A stretch of DNA of 33,066 nt from Candidatus Kuenenia stuttgartensis (GTDB lineage: Bacteria > Pseudomonadota > Alphaproteobacteria > SMXS01), in NCBI GenBank assembly GCA_943329845.2, contig CALQFM020000049.1:1-33066 (forward strand). The letters are read 5' to 3'. Every line of letters starts with the position of its first letter. Positions within the stretch are counted from its first letter, which is position 1. The position numbers and the translations under genes were made by a program. The notes below the pieces were generated by a model. It was not told the origin of the DNA. It ran no database searches and saw only the letters and a list, made by a program, of their open reading frames with translations. Below are positions 9,961 to 25,744 of this stretch, piece by piece.

Positions 9961-12900
9961 TCAGATCGACGCGAACACGCCCCGGATCTGCCTGGCCACG
10001 TAGCCCAGCTTGCCGACGGTGACGCTGCCGCTCGATTGCAGCTCGGCGATCAGTTCCCGCGCTCGCGACAGTGCCTTGACGTGGTGGGCGGCCCAGGATT
10101 CCACGCCGCCTTCGGCCAGCGCCATGCCGGTCAGTTCGCGCTGTTGGTCGTAGAGGTCGTCGACGATGCTGCCCAGCGCCAGCCGGTCCCAATGGTCGGC
10201 TGTCGCGACCATCTCGGTAGCGCCGCGCAGCCAGTCGAGGCCGGTGCGGCCCCCTACCGCGAAATAGGCGCGGGCGATGTCGTCGACCGGCGCCACCGCG
10301 CGCTCCTTCAGCAGCACGATGTCGGTGGCCGACAGCATCAGCTCCAGGCAGGCGATCCGGTGCGCCAGGTCGGCCGGCACACCCTTGGCGACCAGCAGGC
10401 TGATCTGTTCGGCGATGGCGTCGCCGCTGCTCACCTCCATGAGCGCGTCCGAGGCGAACAGCGCCTGCACGCCCGACTGGAAACGCTCGACCACGGTCCG
10501 GATGTCGAGCGGCAGGCCCAGATGGGTCAGGAACCAGCTGGACATCCGGTGCAGCAGCTCCTTGACCTCCAGGATCATGCCGGTCTGCACATGGGCGGGA
10601 ACGGCATTGTCGAGGCGGTCGATGTCGTCCCACAGCGCCTGCAGGCCCATCACCTCGCGGGCGACGATATAGGCGGTGGCGATCTGATCGACGGGCGCGC
10701 CGCTCTCCTCGGCCACGCGGGTGACGTAGGTGATGCCGGCGCGGTTGACGATCTCGTTGCCCACCGTCATGGCGATGATGTTGCGCCGCAGCTGATGGCT
10801 CCTGATCTGCTCGGCGAAGCGCTGGCGCATGGCGGGCGGGAAATAGGCGATCAGGTCGTTGCAGATCCACGGGTCGTCGGGCAGATCGCTGCGGGCGAGA
10901 CGCCGCTTCAGCGAGTTCTTGGCATAGGCCAGCAGCACCGCCAGCTCGGGCCGGGTAAGGCCTTCGCCCGCGGCATGGCGCCTGGCGAGTTCCTCGTCGT
11001 CGGGCAGGAATTCCACCGCCCGCTCCAGGGTGCCCTCATGCTCCAGCCGGTGCATGAACCGGGCCTGCGCGTCGAGCAGCTCGGCGGCGCGGCTGCCGGT
11101 GGTCGACAGGGTTTCGGTCTGCCGGTAGTTGGTGGCGAGGACGAGCGCGCCCACGTCGTCGGTCATCTCGACCAGCAGGGCGTTGCGCTGCTTTTCGGTC
11201 AGGTCGCCGTCCGCGACCACCGCGTTCAGCAGGATCTTGATGTTGACCTCGTAGTCGGAGCAGTTCACGCCGGCCGAGTTGTCGACCGCGTCGGTGTTGA
11301 GCCTGCCGCCGTGGCGGGCATATTCGACGCGGCCGCGCTGGGTGAATCCCAGGTTGCCGCCTTCGCCCACGACCTTGAAGCGCAGGTCCCTGCCGTCGAC
11401 CCGGAGTATGTCGTTGGCGCGGTCGCCGACCTCGGCATTGGTTTCGCTGCTGGCCTTCACGTAGGTACCGATGCCGCCCACCCACAGCAGGTCGGCCTCG
11501 GCCTTCAGGAGGGCGTGGATCAGTTCGGCCGGTGTCGTGGTGTCGGATTCGATGCCGGTGAGCGCCTTGACCTGCGGCGTCAGTGCGATGGACTTGACGC
11601 TGCGGGCGAACACGCCGCCGCCTTCCGAGATCAGTGCCGGGTTGTAGTCGGCCCAGCTGGAGCGGGGCAGATCGAACAGCCGCCGCCGTTCGTCGAAGGC
11701 GGCTTCCGGATCCGGATCGGGATCGATGAACACATGGCGGTGGTCGAACGCCGCCACCAGCTTCAGCGCGCGCGACAGCAGCAGGCCGTTGCCGAACACG
11801 TCTCCGGACATGTCGCCGATGCCCACGATGGTGATCGGCTGGGTCTGGACGTCGATGCCCAGTTCGCGGAAGTGGCGCTGGACGCTGATCCAGGCGCCGC
11901 GGGCGGTGATGCCCATCTTCTTGTGGTCATAGCCGTTGCTGCCGCCCGAGGCGAAGGCGTCGCCCAGCCAGAAGCCGTATTGCAGCGAGATCTCGTTGGC
12001 GATGTCCGAGAAGCTCGCGGTCCCCTTGTCGGCCGCGACCACCAGATAGGGATCGTCCTCGTCGTAGCGGACCACGCTCGCGGGCGGCGCCACGTTGCCG
12101 CCGACGATGTTGTCGGTAATGTCGAGCAGGCCGGACATCAGCGTGCGGTAGCAGCGGATGCCCTCGGCCTGGATTTCCTCGCGGGTGCCGCCGTCCGGCA
12201 GATGCCTGGGCACGAAGCCGCCCTTGGCGCCGTCGGGCACGATCACCGCGTTCTTCACCATCTGCGCCTTGATCAGGCCCAGGATCTCGGTGCGGAAGTC
12301 CTCCGGCCGGTCCGACCAGCGGATGCCGCCGCGCGCCACCTTGCCGCCGCGCAGATGAATCCCTTCCATCCACGGCGCGTATACGAACACTTCTACCATC
12401 GGCCGGGGCTTCGGCAGGCCCTCGACCATCTGGCTGTCCAGCTTCAGCGACAGATAGGGCTTGGGCTTGCCGTTCGCGTCCGGCTGGTAGTAGTTGGTCC
12501 GCAGCGTCGACTGGATGAGATTGACGAAGCGGCGGATGATGCGGTCCTCGTCCAGGCTCTGCACGGCTTCGAGCTGGGTTTCGATCCGCTGGGCGATCTC
12601 CGCGGCCTGGGTGTGGTCGGCGGCGGGATCGAAGCGGGCGGCGAACAGCGCCACCAGGTTGCCGACGATCTCGGGGTTGCCGGTCAACGACTTGCGCATG
12701 TAGGACTGCGAGAACATGGTGCCCGCCTGGCGCAGATATTTCAGGTAGGCGCGCAGGATGACGATCTCGCGCCAGCCCATGGCGGTGTGCAGCACCAGCT
12801 GGTTGAGGCTGTCGTCCTCGGCCGAGCCGTCACACATCTCGGCCAGCGCGTCCTCGAGCGGGGCCTTCACGTCGCGCAGGCGGTGCTCGGTGCCGGAGGC

Positions 12901-14745
12901 GTCGAGCAGCAGGATGTCGTGGATCCAGGCCTCGTGGGCCTCGCCGCGCGGACGCACGGAGTAGGCCTGCTCCTCCATCACCTTCAGGCCCAGATTCTCC
13001 AGCTTGGGCAGCACGTCGCTCAGCGGCACCAGGTGGCTGGCGTGGTAGATCTTCACCCTCAGGATGTCGGGCGTGTCGCCGACCCGCCGGTAGACGTTGA
13101 AGGCGCGGGATTCGGCGCCGCTCAGTTCGTCCAGCTTCCCGATGTCCTGGACCGCCAGTCCGGGATCGTAGGCATCGCAATAAGCCAGACTTACGCCCTC
13201 GGCGTACCGGGTCCACAACGCGTTGCCCCGCTCGTCGCCGAAGTGCTCGCGGAGGCTGTCCTTGAGATGGTCGCGCCAGGTACGGATGATCTCGGCGACG
13301 TGGTCGTCGAGTTCGTCGGAACCCACGTCCGGCATGGGACCCGGCGGCAGGCTGACCAGCAGGTGCAGACGGGCCAGCGGCGAATCGCCGATCTGGGTGT
13401 TTTCTGCCGCGATCTCCCCGCCCAGCGCATCGGCGAACAGCGCCGCGATGCGCTGCCGGCGGTCGTTGGTGAAGGCATCCTTGGGGATGTAGACCTGGAC
13501 CGAGGCGAAGCCGCCATAGGAATCCAGGCGGACGAACGACTTGGCATGCGGGCGCTCGAGCAGGCGCAGGATGCCGAGGGCCGTTTCGTAGAGTTCGTCG
13601 GGCTCGATCTGGAACAGGTCGTCGCGCGGGAATGCCTGCAGGATGTTGTTGAAGATCTTGCCATCATGGCTGTAGCGGTTGAAGCCGGCGCGCTGGGTGA
13701 CGATCGCGGCCTTGCGCCGCAGCACCGGGATCGACTTGAGCGCGATGCTGTAGGCGAGCGACGTGAACATGCCGATGAAGCGCCACTCGCCGATCAGCCG
13801 CCCCGTGTCGTCGTACCGTTTCACGCCCACGTAATCGAGCTGGACGGACCGGTGAACGGTCGAGCGCCGGTGCGCCTTGCCGATGATCAGCGGCGTCGGC
13901 TGCTCGAGGAACGCAAGCGCGGTCCGCGCCAGCGGCGATTCGGCGCCCTGCTCGCGCAGCACCGGAAACGCCGGGTCGCGCATCAGGCCAAGCCCCGCTT
14001 CCGCGTCGGTCACCGCGTAGGGCGCGCCGTTGCGGTCGACGACGTCGTATTCGCGAAAGCCCAGGAAGGTGAAGTTGTCGTCGGCCAGCCAGTTCAGGAA
14101 GTCCACGGCCTCCTGCACTTCCTCGACCGGCGCCGGACCGGGATGGGCCAGCAGCCAGTCGACGGCGCCCCGAAGCCGGGCGACCATGGGTTGCCAGTCG
14201 TCGAAGGTCGCACGCGCATCGGCCAGCACCGCCGCGAGGCCGGCCTCGATCTGTTTCAGCACGGCCGGCGAGGTCTGCTGGTCGATCTCCAGATACATGT
14301 ATGACTCGACATAGCCCAGGCCTTGCGGCGTGCGCAGGCCGGCCACGTCGCGCTCCACGGTCATGACCGGGTGCACCAGCATGGTGATCTCGCGGCCCTG
14401 CCGGGCCAGCTCGGCGGTCACCGAATCGACCAGGAACGGCATGTCGTCGTTGACGATCTCGACCACCGTATGGCGGTCCTGCCAGCCGGTCTCCTCCATG
14501 GACGGGTTGAAGACCTGCACCTTGGCTGTTCCCGTCGCGCGCGTGGCGGCGAACCGCCAAAGCGACAGGGCGAGGGCGAACAGGCTCTCGGGCCGCCGGT
14601 CCAGCAGGTCCTCGGGCGTGACACCGGCGAAGAACCGCGTCATGAACTCCAGGAATGGCCCGGCCTCGGCGGGGGTCAGGCTTTCCCGCGCCAGTTCGCC
14701 GATGCGGTCCAGATGCTGCTGCTTCCGGTCCCAGCGGTTATCCAT
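9961..14745 (-). CDS. gdh2: NAD-specific glutamate dehydrogenase (large, GDH-180 class)
   Basis: This 1,594-residue protein is the large NAD-dependent glutamate dehydrogenase that oxidatively deaminates glutamate to 2-oxoglutarate and ammonia, mainly for glutamate or arginine catabolism. The N-terminal half contains ACT-like regulatory regions (for example VQVFNPSMEETGWQDRHTVVEI near residue 75 and SFVRLDSYGGFASVQVYIP near 400). The catalytic core is near 790-1200, with GKVARGGIRWSDRPEDFRTE followed by MVKNAVIVPDGAKGGFV, the glutamate-binding Lys/Gly-rich segment, and VVGEGGNLGFTQRGR as the dinucleotide-binding loop. The C-terminal ~350 residues are the helical extension of the family. A purine-rich AAAGGGGGAG precedes the ATG at 14743-14745. 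It is transcribed alone, convergent with purH. Confidence 0.95.
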   Translation of the reverse strand: MDNRWDRKQQHLDRIGELARESLTPAEAGPFLEFMTRFFAGVTPEDLLDRRPESLFALALSLWRFAATRATGTAKVQVFNPSMEETGWQDRHTVVEIVNDDMPFLVDSVTAELARQGREITMLVHPVMTVERDVAGLRTPQGLGYVESYMYLEIDQQTSPAVLKQIEAGLAAVLADARATFDDWQPMVARLRGAVDWLLAHPGPAPVEEVQEAVDFLNWLADDNFTFLGFREYDVVDRNGAPYAVTDAEAGLGLMRDPAFPVLREQGAESPLARTALAFLEQPTPLIIGKAHRRSTVHRSVQLDYVGVKRYDDTGRLIGEWRFIGMFTSLAYSIALKSIPVLRRKAAIVTQRAGFNRYSHDGKIFNNILQAFPRDDLFQIEPDELYETALGILRLLERPHAKSFVRLDSYGGFASVQVYIPKDAFTNDRRQRIAALFADALGGEIAAENTQIGDSPLARLHLLVSLPPGPMPDVGSDELDDHVAEIIRTWRDHLKDSLREHFGDERGNALWTRYAEGVSLAYCDAYDPGLAVQDIGKLDELSGAESRAFNVYRRVGDTPDILRVKIYHASHLVPLSDVLPKLENLGLKVMEEQAYSVRPRGEAHEAWIHDILLLDASGTEHRLRDVKAPLEDALAEMCDGSAEDDSLNQLVLHTAMGWREIVILRAYLKYLRQAGTMFSQSYMRKSLTGNPEIVGNLVALFAARFDPAADHTQAAEIAQRIETQLEAVQSLDEDRIIRRFVNLIQSTLRTNYYQPDANGKPKPYLSLKLDSQMVEGLPKPRPMVEVFVYAPWMEGIHLRGGKVARGGIRWSDRPEDFRTEILGLIKAQMVKNAVIVPDGAKGGFVPRHLPDGGTREEIQAEGIRCYRTLMSGLLDITDNIVGGNVAPPASVVRYDEDDPYLVVAADKGTASFSDIANEISLQYGFWLGDAFASGGSNGYDHKKMGITARGAWISVQRHFRELGIDVQTQPITIVGIGDMSGDVFGNGLLLSRALKLVAAFDHRHVFIDPDPDPEAAFDERRRLFDLPRSSWADYNPALISEGGGVFARSVKSIALTPQVKALTGIESDTTTPAELIHALLKAEADLLWVGGIGTYVKASSETNAEVGDRANDILRVDGRDLRFKVVGEGGNLGFTQRGRVEYARHGGRLNTDAVDNSAGVNCSDYEVNIKILLNAVVADGDLTEKQRNALLVEMTDDVGALVLATNYRQTETLSTTGSRAAELLDAQARFMHRLEHEGTLERAVEFLPDDEELARRHAAGEGLTRPELAVLLAYAKNSLKRRLARSDLPDDPWICNDLIAYFPPAMRQRFAEQIRSHQLRRNIIAMTVGNEIVNRAGITYVTRVAEESGAPVDQIATAYIVAREVMGLQALWDDIDRLDNAVPAHVQTGMILEVKELLHRMSSWFLTHLGLPLDIRTVVERFQSGVQALFASDALMEVSSGDAIAEQISLLVAKGVPADLAHRIACLELMLSATDIVLLKERAVAPVDDIARAYFAVGGRTGLDWLRGATEMVATADHWDRLALGSIVDDLYDQQRELTGMALAEGGVESWAAHHVKALSRARELIAELQSSGSVTVGKLGYVARQIRGVFASI

Positions 14746-14801
14746 TGCTCCCCCTTTCGTCCGGGATGCTGGCTTTCGGGCCTCCGGGCGTTTGGTCTGA
14801 T

Positions 14802-14807
14802 ACTATA
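14802..14807 (-). promoter_or_regulatory. Possible -10 box for the glutamate dehydrogenase gene
   Basis: The 128-base gap between the asparagine-synthetase-like gene and the glutamate dehydrogenase start is unusually AT-rich at 14800-14818. On the minus strand it reads TATAGT within CCTATATAGTATC, a good -10 match about 57 bases before the start codon. No convincing -35 lies at 16-18 bases, so the assignment rests on the -10 alone. It implies the dehydrogenase has its own promoter rather than reading on from the ligase cluster. Confidence 0.3.
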
Positions 14808-14873
14808 TAGGAATTGTGTGGCGGTTTGGCGAAGCCGCGCGGGCATATGCTGCCTGCCGGGTCCCCGTTGGGA

Positions 14874-16679
14874 TCAGTCCGAAAGGGTCATCGCGTGACT
14901 GGGCGGGGATGCGGCGACCGCCTCCGGCTCGGCGGACAGCCGGTCGAACGTCATGGCGAGATGCAGGGCCCGCATCAGCAGGCCGGCGGCATCGGCGCCC
15001 GCCTCAAACTTGCACCAGTAGCGACGCCGCACGGCGTCGAGCAGCACATGCGGAATCAGGTCGCGCTTGACGGCGCCGCGCAACACCGCGTTCATCGCCT
15101 TCCGGGAGCGCGAGACGGGGGCGACAGGTGTCGCGCAGAGCGTGTCCAGCGCGGCGGACAGCGCGGCGGGCGAGATGACGCCGGGAATACCCTGGCCAAG
15201 ATGGCCGATCGCCTCGTCCAGCGACCGCCTCTGGCGCCGCATCTCGATGTCGATCACGGGCTGGGCCTGGGAAGTCCGCGCGCCCTTGATGCGGAACAGG
15301 CCGGGGAGCTTGCGCCGCGCCACCGCTTCGAAGAACCGCTTGTCGGTGCGCAGGCTCGACGGAAGGTGCCGCGCCATGTCGATCACCGCCAGGTCCAGGT
15401 GCGGCAGGGCGATGGCACGCCGCCGGGCGACGGTCTGGCGCCGCATCTCGACCATGTTGGCGCACAGGTAGGCGCCGAGAAACAGCATGTCCTTGGTGTC
15501 CTCGTCCGTCCGCATCCTTGGCAGGGCGAGGATTTCGTCATAGACGGGCCAGAGCGCGTCGGCGAGTTCCGTGGCCCGGTCGCTGGTGAGGTTAGGGGCG
15601 AGGCGCGACAGGATGCCGGGCGATTTCAGCGTCCCAGACCCCAGAAGCTCATGCTCGTTCCCGATGCGGAATGTGCCTTGGCCGAACGCCTCGTCGCCGA
15701 AGAAGAGGACCGCGCCGTTCGGCGCATCGGCGCACGCACGCTCATAGGCGTCGACCTCGTAGCAGGCTTTCCGCATGATCAGCCCGCTCTCCAGGTGGGA
15801 CCGCAGCATGCCGCCTATGTCGAACTCCTCGTCGAACCGGTAGATCCGGTGCGCGACCCCCAGGGACGCCGCCTGCCGCCGCGCCACGTCGGCGTCGGAA
15901 CCGGGCCGCGGCTCGCCCACGGCAAATGAAAACGCACTCACCGGATGACCCGCGGCCTGGAGGATGCCGAGAAGCGCGGCGGAATCGTAGCCACCCGACA
16001 GGGAGATCACGGCGTCACTGCCCTGTGCGCGTGCCGTCACCGCGGCGGTGACCCTCGACCACAACTCGCGTCCCGCCTCGGACCGGTCGGTCCAGACGTC
16101 GGCGCCGGGCTGGTGGCGCCAATACGGTGTCGAGGAGGTCCTGTCCGGGCCAATCGTGATCACGCTGGCCAGCGGCAGGCTGCTTACGTTGGCGAACAAG
16201 GTCCGGTCGCGCACCAGATAGCCATTGACCAGAAAGCTGCAGACGCCTGCCAGGTCGGGTGCGGGATTGGCGCCGGCCAGCAGGGCGGGATCGTCCGACA
16301 GCAGGAGGCAGTCGCCGGCGCGGGCCTGGTACACGCGCGACAGGCCGAGGTGATCGGTCCAGCAGGTCAGCCGGCCGCCGTCGTCCAGCCAGAGGTCGCT
16401 GCGGTGTTGGCGCGCCGCCGCCAGCAGGCTGGCCGGTGCGTCGCCGGCATCGATCAGATGGCGGGGAAGGCCGGCCTCCGGCGCGCCCCCGGTGCCGTCG
16501 ATCGTGGCGACGGCTCCGTGCGCCGGAACCGCCTTGCCGTCCCAGCGGCACAGCAGCAGGCCGCCCTCGGCGAGGCGAAGGCGCGTGATCGACGACGGCC
16601 TGTGGCTTTCCGCCGTGGACAGCGCAGCCTGTTCGCCTCCGTGGGCGTGTATGACCGCCAGGAATTCCGCTGCGTGCAA
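14874..16679 (-). CDS. Asparagine-synthetase-like ligase, paralogue 1 (no glutaminase Cys)
   Basis: This 601-residue protein has the two-domain architecture of asparagine synthetase B. The C-terminal ATP-pyrophosphatase domain is recognisable from the PP-loop SGGYDS at 228-233, DADVARRQAASLG around 262-275, and FFGDEAFGQ at 326-334, which takes the place of the AsnB GxGADExFxGY motif. The N-terminal region (~5-190) resembles an Ntn glutaminase domain but lacks Cys2, so glutamine hydrolysis is not expected; this is also the case in beta-lactam synthetases and lasso-peptide cyclases of the AsnB superfamily. The start is TTG at 16677-16679; the paralogue upstream begins at an equivalent point, which supports it. 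It is probably the last gene of the cluster. The likely chemistry is adenylation of a carboxylate and amide formation; the substrate is unknown. Confidence 0.8.
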   Translation of the reverse strand: MHAAEFLAVIHAHGGEQAALSTAESHRPSSITRLRLAEGGLLLCRWDGKAVPAHGAVATIDGTGGAPEAGLPRHLIDAGDAPASLLAAARQHRSDLWLDDGGRLTCWTDHLGLSRVYQARAGDCLLLSDDPALLAGANPAPDLAGVCSFLVNGYLVRDRTLFANVSSLPLASVITIGPDRTSSTPYWRHQPGADVWTDRSEAGRELWSRVTAAVTARAQGSDAVISLSGGYDSAALLGILQAAGHPVSAFSFAVGEPRPGSDADVARRQAASLGVAHRIYRFDEEFDIGGMLRSHLESGLIMRKACYEVDAYERACADAPNGAVLFFGDEAFGQGTFRIGNEHELLGSGTLKSPGILSRLAPNLTSDRATELADALWPVYDEILALPRMRTDEDTKDMLFLGAYLCANMVEMRRQTVARRRAIALPHLDLAVIDMARHLPSSLRTDKRFFEAVARRKLPGLFRIKGARTSQAQPVIDIEMRRQRRSLDEAIGHLGQGIPGVISPAALSAALDTLCATPVAPVSRSRKAMNAVLRGAVKRDLIPHVLLDAVRRRYWCKFEAGADAAGLLMRALHLAMTFDRLSAEPEAVAASPPSHAMTLSD

Positions 16680-16789
16680 TGGACAGGCCCCTCGCGCCGA
16701 CCGCTCGACGTTCCAGCCATTCTAAGCCGCTTCGGCGCCGTGTGGAAATGACCTCGGAGCGGTGCCGACGAAGCCCGGCATCGCGCGCA

Positions 16790-18592
16790 TCACCCAGGCG
16801 GACGGATCGGGGCGCCTATCTGCTGGAAGCCCATGGCGAGATGCAGCACCCTGCGGAACATGTAGGCCGGATCGTTCAGGATCTGATGGGTATTCCAGAA
16901 ACGCCGCTTGACCGGCTGCAGCCAGTGCAGCGGCAGGACCTGCAACCGGGTCAGGTTACGGAAGAACTGCATCCCGACAGCCTCCGGGCGCGACAGCAGC
17001 GGTCCGCCCGGCGTCGGTGAGGTACTCAGGACAGCATCCAGCAGCGCGTCGAATCCGCCCGGCAGCGTCATGCCGGGAATGGCGCGGTCGAGCGTCGGCG
17101 TGACGCTGCGGATCGACGCCTCGTCCCGCCGCAGCAAAGCCGCCACGTCCGCGACACCCTGGCGGTCGCGAGAGCGCGGCGTGCTGAACAGCTCGGGCAG
17201 GTTTCGCTCGCACACCTGCCGGTACAGGCGCTTGTCCAGGCGGTGGCTGAAATGCACATGCTTGAGGAAGTCGAGCATGCCGATGTCGTAGAGCGGTGTC
17301 GTGAACGGAAGCTGGGTACCGGCGGTATGCACCCGCATGGGCAGCAGATCCCAGGTCGCCGATACCGAGGCGTAGAGAAAGTCCTTCAGGTCGTCTGGGT
17401 GGGAGAGCCGCGGCGCCTCGGCCAGCAAACGGCGGTAGTCGGCCGCCACGTTCCGCTGCAGGCGGGCGACCCGTTCCTCGCCCAGCAGCGGCAGATAGGT
17501 CAGCAGTGTGTCCGGATGCTTGACGGCGGCGCCGCCGAGCATGTCGGTCTCCGACCTCAGCCGCAGCGTCCGCTGTCCGAACAGATGGTCGCCGAACACG
17601 AACAGCGGGTTGGCGAAGCGCTCGCGCGCCGTCGCGGCCTCCTCCCGGTAGGCGCCGATCTCGTTGCAGCATCCCCGCAGGCGCAAGCCCTGCGCCAGGT
17701 TGGCCTGGATCAAGCTGATGGTGTCGACGCCGTCGATGCGGTGGATGTGGTGCTCGACGCCGAGGCGCCGGGCCTGGTCGCGGCCCACGGCGGCGTCCGA
17801 ATGAGGCTGCGGCTCGCCCTTGACGTAGGAGAACGCGGTGAGCGGCGTGCCCGCCCGGTGCAGGATGCCCAGCAGGGTCGTCGAATCATACCCACCCGAC
17901 AGCGGCAGCACGACATGCCGGCCCGCGGTATGGGCGGCGACGCTGGATTCGATCAGCTCCCACATGCGTTGTGCCACCGCTCCGGTGTCCGGATCGGCGT
18001 CCTGGCCCGGGCGGAAGTTCCAATAGCGTCTGGCGACAGGACCGGATTCGGTGAGGGTCACGACGCTGGCCACCGGCAGCGTGCTGACCCCGGCATGCAG
18101 CGTGCGATCCATGGAGACGGTGCCGTTGGTCAGGAAATAGGCGATGCATTCCTCGTCCGGCTCGGGCGCCAGCCGGGCCAGCGTGGACAGGTCGTCCGAG
18201 TACACCTCGCAGCCGCCGGCCCGCACGTGGTAGATGCGCGAGATGCCGATGTGATCGGTCCAGAACCCGGGAGTCCGGGTCTCGTCCAGGTAGAAATAGC
18301 TGCGGTCCTGCGCTATGGCGCCCCGCAGGCCGGCGGAAACACCGGGCGCATCGATCAGCGCGGCTGGATAGGCCACTTCGGGCGATCCGCCCGTGCCGTC
18401 GACGACGGCAAGGATGCCGGCATCCGATCGTACCGGCGGTGTTCCCCAGGTACACAGCAGTATGCGACCAAGTTGCGACGGGATGTCGATCACATCCCGC
18501 GGCGCCAGCCTGGCGGCGAGGTATCTTGCGGTCGCGGCAGCACTCTCGGCATGCATGACCGCGACGAATACCGGCTCGCGCAACACGCCCAT
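16790..18592 (-). CDS. Asparagine-synthetase-like ligase, paralogue 2 (no glutaminase Cys)
   Basis: This 600-residue protein is a diverged tandem copy of the next gene: same length, same order of motifs, and alignable stretches such as FVAVMHA versus FLAVIHA, WTDHIGISRIYHVRAG versus WTDHLGLSRVYQARAG, and SGGYDSTTLLGIL versus SGGYDSAALLGIL (PP-loop at 232-237). FVFGDHLFGQ at 331-340 replaces the acidic GADE motif and here has His in place of the Glu found in paralogue 1, a possible active-site difference. There is no Cys2. It lies 68 bases downstream of the RimK-like gene and 110 bases upstream of paralogue 1, same strand. The C-terminal ~90 residues (from about LSRPEAVGMQFFRN) are helical, basic and shared with paralogue 1. 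Function is unknown; amide-bond formation is inferred from the superfamily. Confidence 0.8.
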   Translation of the reverse strand: MGVLREPVFVAVMHAESAAATARYLAARLAPRDVIDIPSQLGRILLCTWGTPPVRSDAGILAVVDGTGGSPEVAYPAALIDAPGVSAGLRGAIAQDRSYFYLDETRTPGFWTDHIGISRIYHVRAGGCEVYSDDLSTLARLAPEPDEECIAYFLTNGTVSMDRTLHAGVSTLPVASVVTLTESGPVARRYWNFRPGQDADPDTGAVAQRMWELIESSVAAHTAGRHVVLPLSGGYDSTTLLGILHRAGTPLTAFSYVKGEPQPHSDAAVGRDQARRLGVEHHIHRIDGVDTISLIQANLAQGLRLRGCCNEIGAYREEAATARERFANPLFVFGDHLFGQRTLRLRSETDMLGGAAVKHPDTLLTYLPLLGEERVARLQRNVAADYRRLLAEAPRLSHPDDLKDFLYASVSATWDLLPMRVHTAGTQLPFTTPLYDIGMLDFLKHVHFSHRLDKRLYRQVCERNLPELFSTPRSRDRQGVADVAALLRRDEASIRSVTPTLDRAIPGMTLPGGFDALLDAVLSTSPTPGGPLLSRPEAVGMQFFRNLTRLQVLPLHWLQPVKRRFWNTHQILNDPAYMFRRVLHLAMGFQQIGAPIRPPG

Positions 18593-18660
18593 CCCTAATT
18601 CTCGGTGCCCACGCGGGCATACTAGTGCGCCGCCATGGGAAATGAAATGGGTGGCTCGTT

Positions 18661-20121
18661 CTAGCGGCTCTCGATTCGGCGGACGAGATCGCTCAGCACG
18701 GTTTTGTACAGATCGTCCTTGAGAATGCCATCCTCGACGCCCCGGTCGATATTGGGATTGTCGTTGATCTCAATGACGAAAACGCCGTTCTCGCGCTGCT
18801 TCAGGTCGACGCCGTAAAGGCCGTCGCCGACCAGGTTGGCGGCGCGCACGCCGGCCTCGACGACCTCCTTCGGCGCGTCCTCGACCGCCACCGCCCGGAA
18901 CGCTCCCTCGGCGAAGCCGCCGCCCGGCTTGTGGTTGATGATCTGCCAGTGCCTGCGCGACATGAAGTACTGGGAGACGAACAGCGGCTTGCGGTTCAGC
19001 ACCCCAACCCGCCAGTCATATTCCGTATACATGAATTCCTGGGCGAGGATCACCGCCGAGTGCCGGAACAGCCGCTTGCCGTGCTCCAGCAGGTCGGACC
19101 GGTTCTCCACCTTGACCACGCCGCGCGAGAACGAGCCGTCGGGAATCTTCAGCACCAGCGGATAGGACAGCTCGGCCTCGGCGTTGAGGATGTTCTGCCG
19201 GTCGACGATGACGGTCTTGGGCGCCGCCACCCTGTTGGTCTGCAGCAGCTCGGCCAGGTAGACTTTGTTGGTGCAGCGCAGGATGGACACCGGGTCGTCG
19301 ATCACCGGCAGGCCCTCGAACACCGCCTTCTGGGCGAAGCGGAAGGTGTGGTTCTCCAGCGTGGTGGTCTCGCGGATGAACAGGGCGTCGTACTCCGCCA
19401 GCCGCAGATAGTCCTTGCGCTCGATGGTCTCCACGTCGATGCCCATCTGGGCGCCGATGGACACAAACTTTTTTATGGTTTCGGGGGAAGACGGCGGCAG
19501 CTTGGCCGAGGCGTCGTAGAGCACCCCCAGCGCGAAGCGCGAGGTCGGCCGCGCCTTGGGCGCGCGCCAGTCGGCACGCGTATAATGTTCCAGCCGCGCG
19601 AGGAAGAAGTCGAATTCCTCCGGGCTCAGCGCGCGGGGCGCGATGGCCTGCAGCGACTTGACGCTCCAGCGCTCGTCGAACGCCACCTCGACCCGCAGCA
19701 GCGGGCAGCGAAACCGGTCGAACAGCTGGCGGGCGAAGGTGCGGAACCGGTTGCCGGCGGTCTGGCCGAAATAGACGGTCAGCGTGAACGCGGCCTGCGG
19801 CGGGTTGGACAGCTTCCTGATCTCGTCGCGCAGGGTGTGGTTCAAGTCGGGCAACTCGACGCTGTAGAGCTGCTTGCGCGACAGGTTCAGGATGGTCTCG
19901 ACCGTGGGCACCACCTTCTGGCCGCGCGCCTCGGCCAGCAGCGAGCAGTAATAGCCCAGGTCGAGGTACTCCAGGTCGCCGCTCAGATTGATGACGCGGG
20001 CGCTCTTGCTCGACAGCCCGTCGGGCGTCTCGACATATTGCTGCAGGGTCACCGCCTTGCCGGCCTTCTGCGCCCATTCGCAGTCGGCCGGAGAGTCGAC
20101 GATAATGATGTGACGTGCCAT
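18661..20121 (-). CDS. RimK-family ATP-grasp ligase with RLAN N-terminal domain
   Basis: This 486-residue protein starts with the RLAN domain (RimK-like ATP-grasp N-terminal; MARHIIIVDSPADCEWAQ, then LEYLDLGYYCSLLAEARGQKV, ~1-180), followed by a RimK-type ATP-grasp domain (~230-486). Visible ATP-grasp features are FIRETTT, the lysine in YPLVLKIPDGSFSRGVVKVEN, and the Mg-binding IEINDNPNID (~448-456). Such proteins were predicted by comparative genomics to be amidoligases that act with a GNAT/peptidase partner to make peptide-like metabolites or modify peptides. The ATG at 20119-20121 starts exactly at the domain boundary; the frame continues upstream for 34 unlikely residues. A GNAT gene precedes it and the two asparagine-synthetase-like genes follow. 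The substrate is unknown. Confidence 0.87.
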   Translation of the reverse strand: MARHIIIVDSPADCEWAQKAGKAVTLQQYVETPDGLSSKSARVINLSGDLEYLDLGYYCSLLAEARGQKVVPTVETILNLSRKQLYSVELPDLNHTLRDEIRKLSNPPQAAFTLTVYFGQTAGNRFRTFARQLFDRFRCPLLRVEVAFDERWSVKSLQAIAPRALSPEEFDFFLARLEHYTRADWRAPKARPTSRFALGVLYDASAKLPPSSPETIKKFVSIGAQMGIDVETIERKDYLRLAEYDALFIRETTTLENHTFRFAQKAVFEGLPVIDDPVSILRCTNKVYLAELLQTNRVAAPKTVIVDRQNILNAEAELSYPLVLKIPDGSFSRGVVKVENRSDLLEHGKRLFRHSAVILAQEFMYTEYDWRVGVLNRKPLFVSQYFMSRRHWQIINHKPGGGFAEGAFRAVAVEDAPKEVVEAGVRAANLVGDGLYGVDLKQRENGVFVIEINDNPNIDRGVEDGILKDDLYKTVLSDLVRRIESR

Positions 20122-20265
20122 GGGGCCTTTGTGATTGGGGCTGAAAAATCGTCGCCGTACCGGGCCCGGCCGCTGCGCCGCCTCGCCAGATCCATGGCTT
20201 CGTCGAACCCCGCCGCGCGCCATGATGCGCGTCGTTGCCGTTGCAGTAAAGATAGCGCGTGGCGG

Positions 20266-20721
20266 CTAAGCCGGTATGGCCCCGAGGCATTTTTTCATGA
20301 CCACGGCGGCAGAACCGTCGTCGTAGAAGTCGGGTTTCCGGCCGGTCGTCACATAACCGGTGGCCACGTACCGGCGGATCGCCGCTTCATTGTCCTCGCG
20401 GACCTCCAGCCTGATCTCGTCATGGCCGGACAACGCCGCCCAGCGTTCGGATTCGGCCAGCAACGCGGTGCCGATGCCCGCCTTCCGGACGGCGGGATCG
20501 ACGGCGACGGAGTAGAGCCGCAGCGACCGGCTGCCCCGGCGCGGCAGGGCGATGGCATCGCCCGCAAGCCTGCCGTCGATCTCGGCAACCAGGCACATGG
20601 CCCGCCCTTCGCGCACCAGCCGCCGCAGCGACCGCGCCGACAGCCGGTCGCCGGGAAACGAGACCTCCTCCAGCCGCACCATGGCGGGAATATCGGCGAG
20701 CGTGGCAGGGCGGATCAGCAT
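20266..20721 (-). CDS. GNAT-family N-acetyltransferase
   Basis: This 151-residue protein is a single GNAT domain. It starts MLIRPATLADIPAMVRLEE, has SFPGDRLSARSLRRLV (typical of the GNATs paired with RLAN/RimK ligases), the acetyl-CoA pyrophosphate loop VRKAGIGTALL (~78-88), and the late strand VREDNEAAIRRYVATGY, and ends MKKCLGAIPA. In many proteobacteria the homologous partner is a GNAT fused to a C39-like peptidase domain; here that second domain is absent, and the 144-base gap to the ligase gene is too short to hold it. It is the first gene of the ligase cluster. It may acetylate an amine on the substrate or product of the ligases, or transfer another acyl group; this is inference. Confidence 0.85.
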   Translation of the reverse strand: MLIRPATLADIPAMVRLEEVSFPGDRLSARSLRRLVREGRAMCLVAEIDGRLAGDAIALPRRGSRSLRLYSVAVDPAVRKAGIGTALLAESERWAALSGHDEIRLEVREDNEAAIRRYVATGYVTTGRKPDFYDDGSAAVVMKKCLGAIPA

Positions 20722-21055: not shown

Positions 21056-22267
21056 ATGGCTGACGACCGATCGGAGAACATGCCGCTCAGCGGCATCACC
21101 GTGCTGGACCTGGGACAGGTCTATCAGGGACCGTACGCGACCATGCTGATGGCGCGGGCCGGCGCCGACGTGATCAAGGTCGAGCCGGTCGATGGCGAGC
21201 CGGTGCGCCGCCGCTCGGCGGTGTCGAAGGGCGCCATGCTGCCGCTCGCCATGCTCAATTCGAACAAGCGCGGCATCACCCTCAACCTGAAGTCGCCCGA
21301 GGGGCGCGACCTGCTGCTGAGGCTGGCCGAACATGCCGACGTGCTGCTGGAGAACTTCGCGCCCGGTGTGATGGACGGTCTCGGCGTCGGCTGGGAGGTG
21401 CTGCATGCCGTCAATCCCCGGCTGATCTACGCCTCGGGCAGCGGCTTCGGCCTGTCCGGGCCAGACCGGGACGCGCTGGCCATGGACCTCACCATCCAGG
21501 CGGTGTCGGGCGCCATGAGCGTCACCGGTTTTCCCGGCGGCCCGCCGCTCAAGTCCGGACCGACTTTCGCCGATTTCCTCAGCGGCACCCACCTCTACGG
21601 CGCGGTGCTGACGGCGCTGTTCGAACGCACGCGGACGGGCAAGGGCCGGCTGGTCGAGGTGGCCATGGTCGAGACCATCTACCCGGCGCTCGCGTCGAAC
21701 CTCAGCCTGCTCCATGGCACTTCAGGGACGGTCACCACCCGTACCGGCAACCGCCACGGCGGTCTCGCCATCGCGCCCTACAACGTCTATCCAGCCGCTG
21801 ATGGCCACGTCGCCATCCTGTGCATCAAGGAGGCGCACTGGACCAACCTGCTGCGCGCCATGGGGCGCGAGGATCTGGCCGACGACCCGCGCTTTGCCAC
21901 CAACGCCCTGCGCGTGCGCAACCTGGACGCGACCGACGCCGTCGTCGAAGCCTGGACATCGGCGCGCAGCCGGGCCGACATCTTCGCGGCGGTCAAGCAG
22001 TATCGGATTCCCTGCGCGCCGGTCCGCGACCTGGAAGAGGTGATGAACGACCCGCACATGCACGAACGCGGCATGCTGGAATGGGTCGACCATCCCGAGC
22101 TTGGGCGCGTCGTGCTGCCGAACAGCCCGCTGCGCATCCACGGCGCGGTCCGGCCGGCGACGGTGCCGAGCCCGACCTTGGGCCAGCACAATGACGAGAT
22201 TTTCGGCGGGCTGCTCGGTCTCACGCCGGAGGAGATCGACGGGCTGCGCGCCAAAGGAGCGATCTGA
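21056..22267 (+). CDS. CaiB/BaiF (class III) CoA-transferase
   Basis: This 403-residue protein is a family III CoA-transferase, which moves CoA between carboxylic acids through an aspartyl-CoA thioester. Family features run through the whole length: GITVLDLGQVYQGPYATMLMARAGADVIKVEP at 13-44, then NSNKRGITLNLK, and LLENFAPGVMDGLG. Asp144 in ALAMDLTIQAVSG is at the place of the catalytic aspartate (Asp169 of formyl-CoA transferase). The interlocked-ring C-terminal half includes PCAPVRDLEEVMNDPHM. GGGGAG lies 5 bases before the ATG. The acyl substrate cannot be inferred; no neighbouring gene points to a particular pathway. The next gene follows after 2 bases. Confidence 0.92.
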   Translation: MADDRSENMPLSGITVLDLGQVYQGPYATMLMARAGADVIKVEPVDGEPVRRRSAVSKGAMLPLAMLNSNKRGITLNLKSPEGRDLLLRLAEHADVLLENFAPGVMDGLGVGWEVLHAVNPRLIYASGSGFGLSGPDRDALAMDLTIQAVSGAMSVTGFPGGPPLKSGPTFADFLSGTHLYGAVLTALFERTRTGKGRLVEVAMVETIYPALASNLSLLHGTSGTVTTRTGNRHGGLAIAPYNVYPAADGHVAILCIKEAHWTNLLRAMGREDLADDPRFATNALRVRNLDATDAVVEAWTSARSRADIFAAVKQYRIPCAPVRDLEEVMNDPHMHERGMLEWVDHPELGRVVLPNSPLRIHGAVRPATVPSPTLGQHNDEIFGGLLGLTPEEIDGLRAKGAI

Positions 22268-22269
22268 GT

Positions 22270-22965
22270 ATGCTGCGACTCTATGTCGCAACAATGTTTT
22301 TAGGCTTGCTTTCCGGTGGGGCAGCCTACGCTTGGTCCTGCGAAAAATACGCGCCCAATGTTGTGAACTTGACGGGCACTTTGCTCACCGTGACGGCTTA
22401 TGGGCCACCCAACTACGGAGAGAATCCCGGGACAGACAGCCTCGAAACTGTGCCTGTCCTGCGGCTGGATCGACCGATCTGCGTCGACGAAGACCCTTTG
22501 GATGGCGGCGTCTCTCCACCCGAGCGGGACATCGTAGCGATTCAGTTGGTTTATTCGTCAGCCACTGCCAAGTTCCGGCGTGACCTGGTAGGCCGTCATG
22601 TCAGCGTTTCCGGAACACTGTTTCACGCCATCTCGGGACATCACCGCACCGACGTTCTGATGTCGGTGACGAAGCAGAAGGATGTACCCCTCATCCCCCG
22701 CGCCGAGGTGGTCGATGCGCTGGCGGCAGCCCGGGCAGTAGGCGATGCGATCGGGGCCTGTCCGTCTCATATAGGGCGTCGGCGGGCCAGCACCCTCATC
22801 GCGCTTTGCAGCTGGGTATCGTCCTCCAGGTATCCGCCATGCAACATGGGAAACCCCTGTAAGGCGGCCACGGAACATGTCCGCCAGATGTGCCCACAAT
22901 CAGCGCCGGATGCAGATTTGCCGTGTGAGAACTACGGTTTACCGCCCGAATATGCCCGTCCCTAA
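22270..22965 (+). CDS. Secreted DUF4431-domain protein with Cys-rich C-terminal extension
   Basis: This 231-residue protein begins with a signal peptide (LYVATMFLGLLSGGAAYAWS). Residues ~25-145 match my recollection of DUF4431: LTGTLLTVTAYGPPNYGE, then VLRLDRPICVDEDPLDGG, then LVGRHVSVSGTLFHAISGHHRTDVLM. The remaining ~85 residues are not part of that domain and carry seven cysteines, among them CNMGNPCKAA. Base composition is visibly less GC-rich than the neighbours, with mixed third positions, suggesting recent acquisition. The ATG is 2 bases after the CoA-transferase stop, with AAAGGAG inside the end of that gene, so it could be translationally coupled even though the functions look unrelated. 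The end overlaps the convergent hydrolase by 4 bases. Function is unknown. Confidence 0.7.
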   Translation: MLRLYVATMFLGLLSGGAAYAWSCEKYAPNVVNLTGTLLTVTAYGPPNYGENPGTDSLETVPVLRLDRPICVDEDPLDGGVSPPERDIVAIQLVYSSATAKFRRDLVGRHVSVSGTLFHAISGHHRTDVLMSVTKQKDVPLIPRAEVVDALAAARAVGDAIGACPSHIGRRRASTLIALCSWVSSSRYPPCNMGNPCKAATEHVRQMCPQSAPDADLPCENYGLPPEYARP

Positions 22966-24773: not shown

Positions 24774-25664
24774 TCACGCGGCCGCGCGCTCGCCGATCGT
24801 GACCGGCGAGCCGGCATACCGGGCAAGGAACGGCAGCTCCCGGCACATGGCCTCGACCCGTTCCACATCCTCGCGGGTCCAGCAGACGCTGTCGCGCGAC
24901 AGCTTGGGAGACTCGAACACCACGGCGCTGCAGGCCGCCAGATAGGCCGGATCGGCCTCCAGCCCCACGAAGGCGCAGAGCTGCCGCATGTGGCCTTCCA
25001 CGTCGGCGACGAAGCCCTCGTGCCACTGAGTGAGGATTTCCTCGGGTGCGAGACGGCCGATCACCGCCTGGCAGCATGACGCCAGGGCGTGGTAGCGGTC
25101 GATGGCGGCGGGCAGGGACCGCTGCTCGCGCTGCGAGATGGTTGCCAGGTTGTCGTAGGGGTTGCGCACGTTGTGGACGAAGCGCAGCGGCATGTTCATG
25201 CGCCGCCTGAGGGTGTCGAGCAGTGACGGATCTTCCAGCAGGTGCCAGCTGGTCCCGCCGCCTTTCTTGTCGCCGATCACGCGGATGTCGTCATGCCTGC
25301 CCAGGAAGCCGCCGGGCACGTCGTAGGCGTAGCCCGCGCTGATCCGGCCCCGCTGGGCGAAATCCTGGTCCCGGCGCCGCAGCAGCGCCAGAATCTGCGA
25401 GCGCTGGAATCCGAGCCGGAAGTAGCGGGTGGCGAACAGTTCGTGGGCGATCAGCGCCTGCGGGTGCGCGTTGAGCAGCGCGCCCACCAGCGAGTGGCCG
25501 CTGCGCGGATAGCCGATGAAGGTGACATAGGCCTGCAGGTTGCCGAACAGCCGGCGGTGCGCCGCGTAGTCGATCCACGACACGGGATAGAGCACCGTCA
25601 CGGCGTATGCCTTCCGGAGCCATTCGGAACTGGTCAGTCGGCGGAGCCGTCTCTGGAATAACAA
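24774..25664 (-). CDS. Sulfotransferase family protein
   Basis: This 296-residue protein has the two PAPS-binding signatures of sulfotransferases: the 5'-phosphosulfate loop FIGYPRSGHSLVGALLNAHP (~49-68) and the 3'-phosphate-binding RNPYDNLATIS around 167-177, with the intervening HELFATRY region. Members transfer sulfate from PAPS to hydroxyl or amino groups of carbohydrates, lipids or peptides; the acceptor cannot be read here. There is no signal peptide, although VLYPVSWIDYAAHRRLF near the N-terminus is amphipathic. It stands alone between the TPR gene and the tRNA, with no glycosyltransferases nearby. The precise ATG is plausible but not strongly supported by a ribosome-binding site. Confidence 0.85.
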   Translation of the reverse strand: MLFQRRLRRLTSSEWLRKAYAVTVLYPVSWIDYAAHRRLFGNLQAYVTFIGYPRSGHSLVGALLNAHPQALIAHELFATRYFRLGFQRSQILALLRRRDQDFAQRGRISAGYAYDVPGGFLGRHDDIRVIGDKKGGGTSWHLLEDPSLLDTLRRRMNMPLRFVHNVRNPYDNLATISQREQRSLPAAIDRYHALASCCQAVIGRLAPEEILTQWHEGFVADVEGHMRQLCAFVGLEADPAYLAACSAVVFESPKLSRDSVCWTREDVERVEAMCRELPFLARYAGSPVTIGERAAA

Positions 25665-25744
25665 CGATGCCGCGGACAGTTCCCCAACCCTCCAGTCAGT
25701 GCGCGTGCGCCAAGCATCATACGACTGGTTGCGGGTGTGAAACG

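Follow-up and report, generated by a model that had tools for sequence, protein, structure and literature searches.

Organization of the RLAN-RimK locus

The DNA analysed here (the window) is a stretch of 33,066 nucleotides from an alphaproteobacterial assembly filed under Candidatus Kuenenia stuttgartensis (GCA_943329845.2, contig CALQFM020000049.1; GTDB lineage SMXS01). Its minus strand carries a locus of four genes that encode, in order, a GNAT acetyltransferase, an ATP-grasp ligase of the RLAN-RimK type, and two proteins related to asparagine synthetase B, referred to as AsnB-like a and AsnB-like b (Table 1). With the start codons chosen here and Pfam matches to the products, the arrangement agrees with the initial annotation, which had described four same-strand genes separated by gaps of 144, 68 and 110 bases. 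The mechanical open reading frame of RLAN-RimK begins at 20223, and the ATG at 20121 was chosen as the start. This ATG is kept in G001, G002, G004 and G005, and the sequence 5' of it varies by insertions and deletions. The TTG start of AsnB-like b is also present in G001, G004 and G005; some start codons of AsnB-like genes are our choice. All four frames are kept in relatives with ratios of nonsynonymous to synonymous substitution (dN/dS) below 1 and are thus real genes.

Table 1. Positions of genes, motifs and putative promoter-like elements at the locus, numbered from the first base of the window.
Feature	Position	Strand	Remarks
GNAT acetyltransferase	20266..20721	-	151 amino acids; lacks the C39-like peptidase domain common in relatives; Pfam GNAT, E 2e-15
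RLAN-RimK ATP-grasp ligase	18661..20121	-	486 amino acids; ATG at 20121; Pfam RLAN, 9e-44, then RimK/ATP-grasp models
Putative promoter-like element before AsnB-like a	18619..18647	-	inside the RimK-AsnB gap; missed by the general scan
AsnB-like a	16790..18592	-	600 amino acids; lacks the glutaminase Cys; Pfam Asn_synthase, 2e-8
PP-loop SGGYDS of AsnB-like a	17882..17899	-	
Cys-x-Glu motif of AsnB-like a	17660..17668	-	C309 and E311; in 15/15 copies
Putative promoter-like element before AsnB-like b	16719..16748	-	found by the general scan
AsnB-like b	14874..16679	-	601 amino acids; TTG start; lacks the glutaminase Cys; Pfam Asn_synthase, 3e-8
PP-loop SGGYDS of AsnB-like b	15981..15998	-	
Cys-x-Glu motif of AsnB-like b	15756..15764	-	

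GNAT and RLAN-RimK form a conserved alphaproteobacterial pair

Among 96 relatives, the window RLAN-RimK was matched at 91-100% identity in all seven same-genus genomes (G000 to G006) and over its length at 48-63% in seven genomes of other families; 12 further genomes gave weak matches to the ATP-grasp part only. A class sample of 385 alphaproteobacterial genomes (E 1e-60) contained RLAN-RimK in 45, four of them of the same genus and 41 others. The stretch around RimK was read in all 41 loci outside the genus, seven of which (L109, L159, L163, L164, L165, L170 and L176) gave less than 13 kb owing to contig ends or the requested length. GNAT adjoins RimK in 7/7 same-genus genomes. At 40 of the 41 other loci it either neighbours RimK or shares an open frame with it; the exception is L159, where the contig ends inside RimK. 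The two share one open frame in L187 and L190. GNAT and RLAN-RimK are therefore an old, conserved pair in the Alphaproteobacteria, and the partnership assumed in the initial annotation is borne out well beyond the genus. A DUF3335/C39-like peptidase match lies on a GNAT frame in 25 of the 41 loci outside the genus (in L187 the C39-bearing GNAT is a second one, on the other strand), and on none in the seven same-genus genomes. PMC10318531 describes fusion to a GNAT domain as frequent among DUF3335 members.

AsnB-like genes are nearly confined to one genus

Full-length AsnB-like relatives were found in six of the seven genus genomes, where they follow RimK as one to three tandem copies (two each in G000, G001, G004 and G006, one in G003, three in G005); G002 has none. 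The genus total is 14 copies, of which 12 adjoin RimK and two lie elsewhere, one on C37 of G000 in a stretch with an M48-type peptidase gene and one on C2 of G003 near a cytochrome P450 gene. Other neighbours of these two copies were read, from sequence starts only, as RNase E, PBP1A and DNA ligase D, and the neighbouring genes have no evident link to them. A scan of genome contigs with two short peptide patterns returned three loci, apparently those of G001, G004 and G006, and did not return G003 or G005.

Outside the genus the family is scarce. Class and phylum searches (at most three candidates scored per genome, E 1e-20 and 1e-30) gave matches in seven of 385 genomes at E 1e-20, namely four of the genus, G191, G298 and G363, and in the phylum sample of 398 only in the genome of the window itself. 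The G191 protein is a full-length relative (610 bits); those of G298 and G363 are partial matches (79 and 77 bits). In G191 the neighbours of the gene (L134, 9052-10950) include glycosyltransferases, a sugar transferase and a Polysacc_synt flippase; this polysaccharide locus is a possible hint at a sugar-acid substrate. G191 showed no RLAN-RimK match to the window RimK, just a weak generic ATP-grasp match.

A neighbourhood comparison, the check proposed with the initial annotation, thus gave a divided answer: AsnB-like genes stand beside RimK in six of seven genus genomes and at none of the 41 RimK-GNAT loci outside the genus. Within the genus, where the locus accounts for 12 of 14 copies, the family does not occur mostly apart from RimK and GNAT. 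In L171 and L173, both of one genus, the profile weakly matched a canonical AsnB near RimK; the L171 protein scores above the cut-off for glutamine-hydrolysing asparagine synthase and therefore does not belong to the AsnB-like family.

A mobile or viral origin of the AsnB-like genes was considered and rejected. Viral contigs gave 79 pattern matches, among which no AsnB-like relative was confirmed, and five plasmid records matched 28-34% of the AsnB-like protein at 28-32% identity.

AsnB-like proteins keep the AsnB fold with an altered active site

Pfam Asn_synthase is above its gathering cut-off for both window proteins, with matches that span just 76 and 85 residues around the pyrophosphate-binding loop (PP-loop); the best NCBIfam matches reach 41 and 49 bits versus a cut-off of 267, and a sequence search against solved structures returned only TsnB9, as a partial match. 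The AlphaFold model of AsnB-like a (predicted local distance difference test score 71.1, predicted template modelling score 0.75; the other four models, 47.6-64.2) matched TsnB9 (Z 22.1), human asparagine synthetase (18.2), carbapenam synthetase (17.8), E. coli AsnB (16.9) and beta-lactam synthetase (16.6), within an overall range of Z 15.7-22.1. These matches cover 388-491 residues, most of the protein, at 12-16% identity. AsnB-like a is accordingly modelled with the two-domain fold of the AsnB superfamily (PF00733), in which an N-terminal domain of the N-terminal nucleophile (Ntn) type precedes a PP-loop synthetase domain.

We then compared residues across 15 AsnB-like copies, which reach down to 31% identity to the first; the shortened a-copy of G001 was included in these counts and excluded from the alignments, dN/dS and tree described below. 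The S, G, G and D of the PP-loop are kept in all 15, with one copy reading SGGNDA instead of SGGxDS, and R451 and K454, the latter corresponding to the invariant lysine, are likewise present in every copy. The glutaminase Cys at residue 2 is absent from all 15, in agreement with the initial annotation as regards the window pair. C309 and E311, present in 15/15, align in hhalign with the DSSAIP segment of canonical AsnB, which forms part of the substrate pocket. Another Glu of AsnB, E348 of the SGEG loop, is without an acidic counterpart at positions 329-334 in all 15 copies, and Asp is found at position 328 in seven.

Together with the invariant Cys-x-Glu, the loss of the Tyr of the Glu-Tyr dyad is what makes this AsnB-like branch most interesting. 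According to PMC13060819, Glu363-Tyr368 of PesC is conserved in five AsnB-type enzymes, the Tyr mutant is inactive and the Glu mutant is weakened. We assigned the dyad to E and Y of DEVFGGY, which correspond to positions 336 and 341 in the AsnB-like proteins; the assignment uses the five-residue spacing and the hhalign register against the genome's own canonical AsnB. Position 341 is not Tyr in any of the 15 copies (Gly in eight, Arg in five, Ser and Lys in one each), and the AsnB-like a model is of low confidence at residues 337-358, which cover this site. Position 336 is Glu in nine (the b and c copies and G191), His in five a copies and Gln in G005m.

Since the AsnB fold, PP-loop and invariant lysine are kept, the AsnB-like proteins would be expected to bind ATP and adenylate a substrate. 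Without the usual route for freeing ammonia from glutamine, they should draw the nucleophile from the substrate or from some other amine. With the dyad Tyr gone, binding of the substrate should fall to different residues, perhaps the Cys and Glu of the invariant motif. The altered active site hints at undescribed chemistry. The initial annotation had counted three carboxylate-activating enzymes at the locus; this is unproven for the two AsnB-like proteins because the carboxylate-handling dyad Tyr is absent from every copy.

Two further readings of these residues were weighed. PP-loop sulfur transferases use Cys, and a distinct AsnB branch with a rebuilt active site can be imagined, in which Cys-x-Glu takes over substrate handling, with the Cys perhaps a covalent nucleophile in the transfer of acyl groups or sulfur, the a copies (His) and b copies (Glu) catalyse two different reactions, and the substrate is the RimK-GNAT product or a cell-surface sugar. 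We consider this proposal unlikely. Also unlikely, in our judgement, is that the AsnB-like proteins are degenerate and non-catalytic, with a structural or regulatory role in which they bind ATP or a ligand and make no bond. The missing glutaminase Cys and dyad Tyr, the loss of the dyad Glu in six of 15 copies, the SGGNDA variant, the fast evolution of the genes and an in-frame deletion of about 88 residues in the N-terminal domain of the G001 a-copy (L098, 11771-13306), which may be an assembly effect, would all fit such decay. Against it stand the PP-loop residues, R451, K454, C309 and E311, retained in every copy despite the low identity, and the dN/dS values of close pairs, which are well below 1.

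Selection on the AsnB-like genes and their transcription

We estimated dN/dS by the NG86 method. The values were 0.21-0.23 among AsnB-like a-copies (G000, G004 and G005), 0.21-0.32 among b-copies (G000, G001, G004 and G005) and 0.38 for the c pair, rising to 0.45-0.61 in more distant a and b pairs, in which dS is near or above 1. RimK gave 0.00-0.11 over 21 pairs. The AsnB-like genes are thus under purifying selection and evolve several-fold faster than RimK. The AsnB tree recovers the a-copies (99/97) and the c-copies (100/100) as groups; with the c-copies nested among them, the b-copies do not form a clade. The RimK species tree, with support of 40, 43, 49 and 70 at four of its five inner forks, is too weak to date the loss in G002.

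The alignments also pointed to a promoter-like element upstream of the AsnB-like genes, consisting of a T-rich pentamer, 15-20 bases and TAnnAT. The pattern was devised after the alignments had been seen, and orthologous copies are not independent. It precedes four of five a-copies and five of six b-copies (9/12 at the locus) and none of six starts examined for RimK, GNAT, glutamate dehydrogenase and CoA-transferase. Chance alone would give about 0.002 occurrences per 130 bases under a Markov-1 model of the window. A looser form has four sites on both window strands versus 1.2 expected under the same type of model, and two of them are the AsnB-like a and b sites; a general promoter scan of the window found four sites versus 0.6 expected. 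The loose pattern also starts at 25742, on the strand of a sulfotransferase-family gene (24774-25664). Judged from these motifs, the AsnB-like genes are probably transcribed at least partly from their own promoters. The elements before most a and b copies lend indirect support to separate transcription, and the single transcription unit implied by the initial annotation was not confirmed, as both AsnB-like genes of the window follow such an element.

Two modules side by side

We favour, with moderate confidence, the reading that the locus holds two modules side by side, the conserved RimK-GNAT pair and a lineage-specific AsnB-like family, rather than one established pathway. By the chemistry of its family, RimK would attach an amino acid (glutamate, by analogy) to a protein or small molecule through an acyl-phosphate, and GNAT would acylate the substrate or product of RimK. 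The AsnB-like genes may have arisen or arrived beside RimK in the ancestor of the genus, followed by tandem duplication and relocation. We infer no obligate link between them and RimK; the family possibly, not demonstrably, acts on the RimK-GNAT product.

The initial annotation had instead joined the four genes in one pathway. On that view, the acylated amino-acid or peptide product of RimK and GNAT would receive further amide bonds or decorations from the AsnB-like pair, as a genus-specific extension of the old RimK-GNAT product. The same strand, order and short gaps in 6/6 genus carriers argue for such a pathway, as does the presence of 12 of the 14 genus copies here. In the synthesis of N-acetylglutaminylglutamine amide (NAGGN), described in PMC8070244, GNAT-containing and AsnB-type enzymes yield a single product, and PMC4431377 mentions other operons that link ATP-grasp ligases with GNAT. 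With the ATP-grasp domain of Ngg counted in, NAGGN is a precedent for all three enzyme types in one pathway. Yet AsnB-like genes are found at 0/41 RimK-GNAT loci outside the genus, G002 keeps RimK and GNAT without them, copies occur away from the locus and in the polysaccharide locus of G191, a genome without RLAN-RimK, promoter-like elements precede the AsnB-like genes, and RimK evolves much more slowly. We therefore regard a single pathway as somewhat unlikely, and the interpretation first given to the locus is partly supported overall.

Several observations weigh against separating the modules. With a dN/dS of 0.16-0.30 (10 pairs from five of the seven genomes), GNAT evolves at roughly the pace of the AsnB-like genes, so that rate alone does not set these apart from the whole module. 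Where genus genomes carry AsnB-like genes after RimK, six in all, their position, strand and order are constant and the gaps measure 68-167 bases, an arrangement that fits a functional link. RimK is present in 7/7 genus genomes, so co-occurrence there does not tell linkage apart from shared ancestry. The promoter-like element is missing before G006 a and b, G005m, the two c copies and the G191 gene. No terminator-like site was found between the genes on the minus strand, so read-through is possible. The locus is also a caution against inferring a pathway from the gene order of a single genome.

Genes flanking the locus

By Pfam, the locus is flanked by genes for an NAD-glutamate dehydrogenase (9961-14745, minus strand) and a CoA-transferase of family III (21056-22267, plus strand), the latter directly followed by a DUF4431-domain gene (22270-22965). 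In G001, G002 and G003, six-frame reading revealed a Kef-type antiporter-like frame, named by eye, between the locus and the glutamate dehydrogenase gene; the corresponding interval of the window (14746-14873) has only 128 bases and thus cannot hold it.

Comparison with known systems

A literature search of open-licence PMC papers found no description of RLAN-RimK with AsnB-like genes and no product of RLAN-RimK. A role in anti-phage defence was set aside, as none of the four proteins had a PADLOC match at E 0.01. The methylofuran ligases MyfA and MyfB, described as ATP-grasp glutamate ligases, are a lead only.

Iyer et al. 2009 reportedly described gene pairs of RLAN-RimK with GNAT, the latter with or without a C39-like peptidase. 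The present locus resembles such pairs in that RLAN precedes the ATP-grasp domain and the GNAT gene is adjacent. It differs from them in that the GNAT of the genus lacks DUF3335/C39 (7/7) and AsnB-like genes follow RimK (6/7).

The NAGGN pathway (asnO-ngg) was also compared; its enzyme Ngg holds an ATP-grasp domain. PMC8070244 describes GNAT-containing and AsnB-type enzymes that yield one small amide product, with AsnO using glutamine. None of eight genomes tested contained a NAGGN synthetase (TIGR03103) above cut-off, and with the AsnO-type model TIGR03104, whose cut-off is 570, the AsnB-like pair reaches 24.5 and 24.2 bits; identity with this pathway was rejected on these grounds.

Cyclases of the lasso and ikarugamycin macrolactam type belong to the AsnB superfamily too, and their models give weak, partial matches to the AsnB-like proteins (27-45 bits), far below the cut-offs of 300 and 525. 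That the AsnB-like proteins are such cyclases acting on a ribosomal precursor seems highly improbable. The 45 bits of AsnB-like a with the albusnodin/ikarugamycin cyclase model (cut-off 300) and one plasmid match that overlies a feature annotated as a lasso B2 protein speak for it. On the other side, the lasso B protein PF13471 was found in none of the seven genomes that carry AsnB-like genes (G000, G001, G003-G006 and G191, with G004 78% and G006 84% complete), and there is little space for a precursor gene in the gaps of 68 and 110 bases, with no search made for one elsewhere. The only PF13471 match in the eight genomes searched is in G002 (L205), which lacks AsnB-like genes.

If the AsnB-like genes do act with RLAN-RimK, they would offer a handle on its product. 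If they act alone, they would represent an AsnB-type branch without the Tyr that is essential in PesC and thereby a test of the superfamily mechanism. Like AsnB, beta-lactam synthetase, carbapenam synthetase and TsnB9, the AsnB-like proteins share the predicted fold, the PP-loop and the invariant lysine; unlike these enzymes of the superfamily, they lack the glutaminase Cys and the dyad Tyr and carry an invariant Cys-x-Glu.

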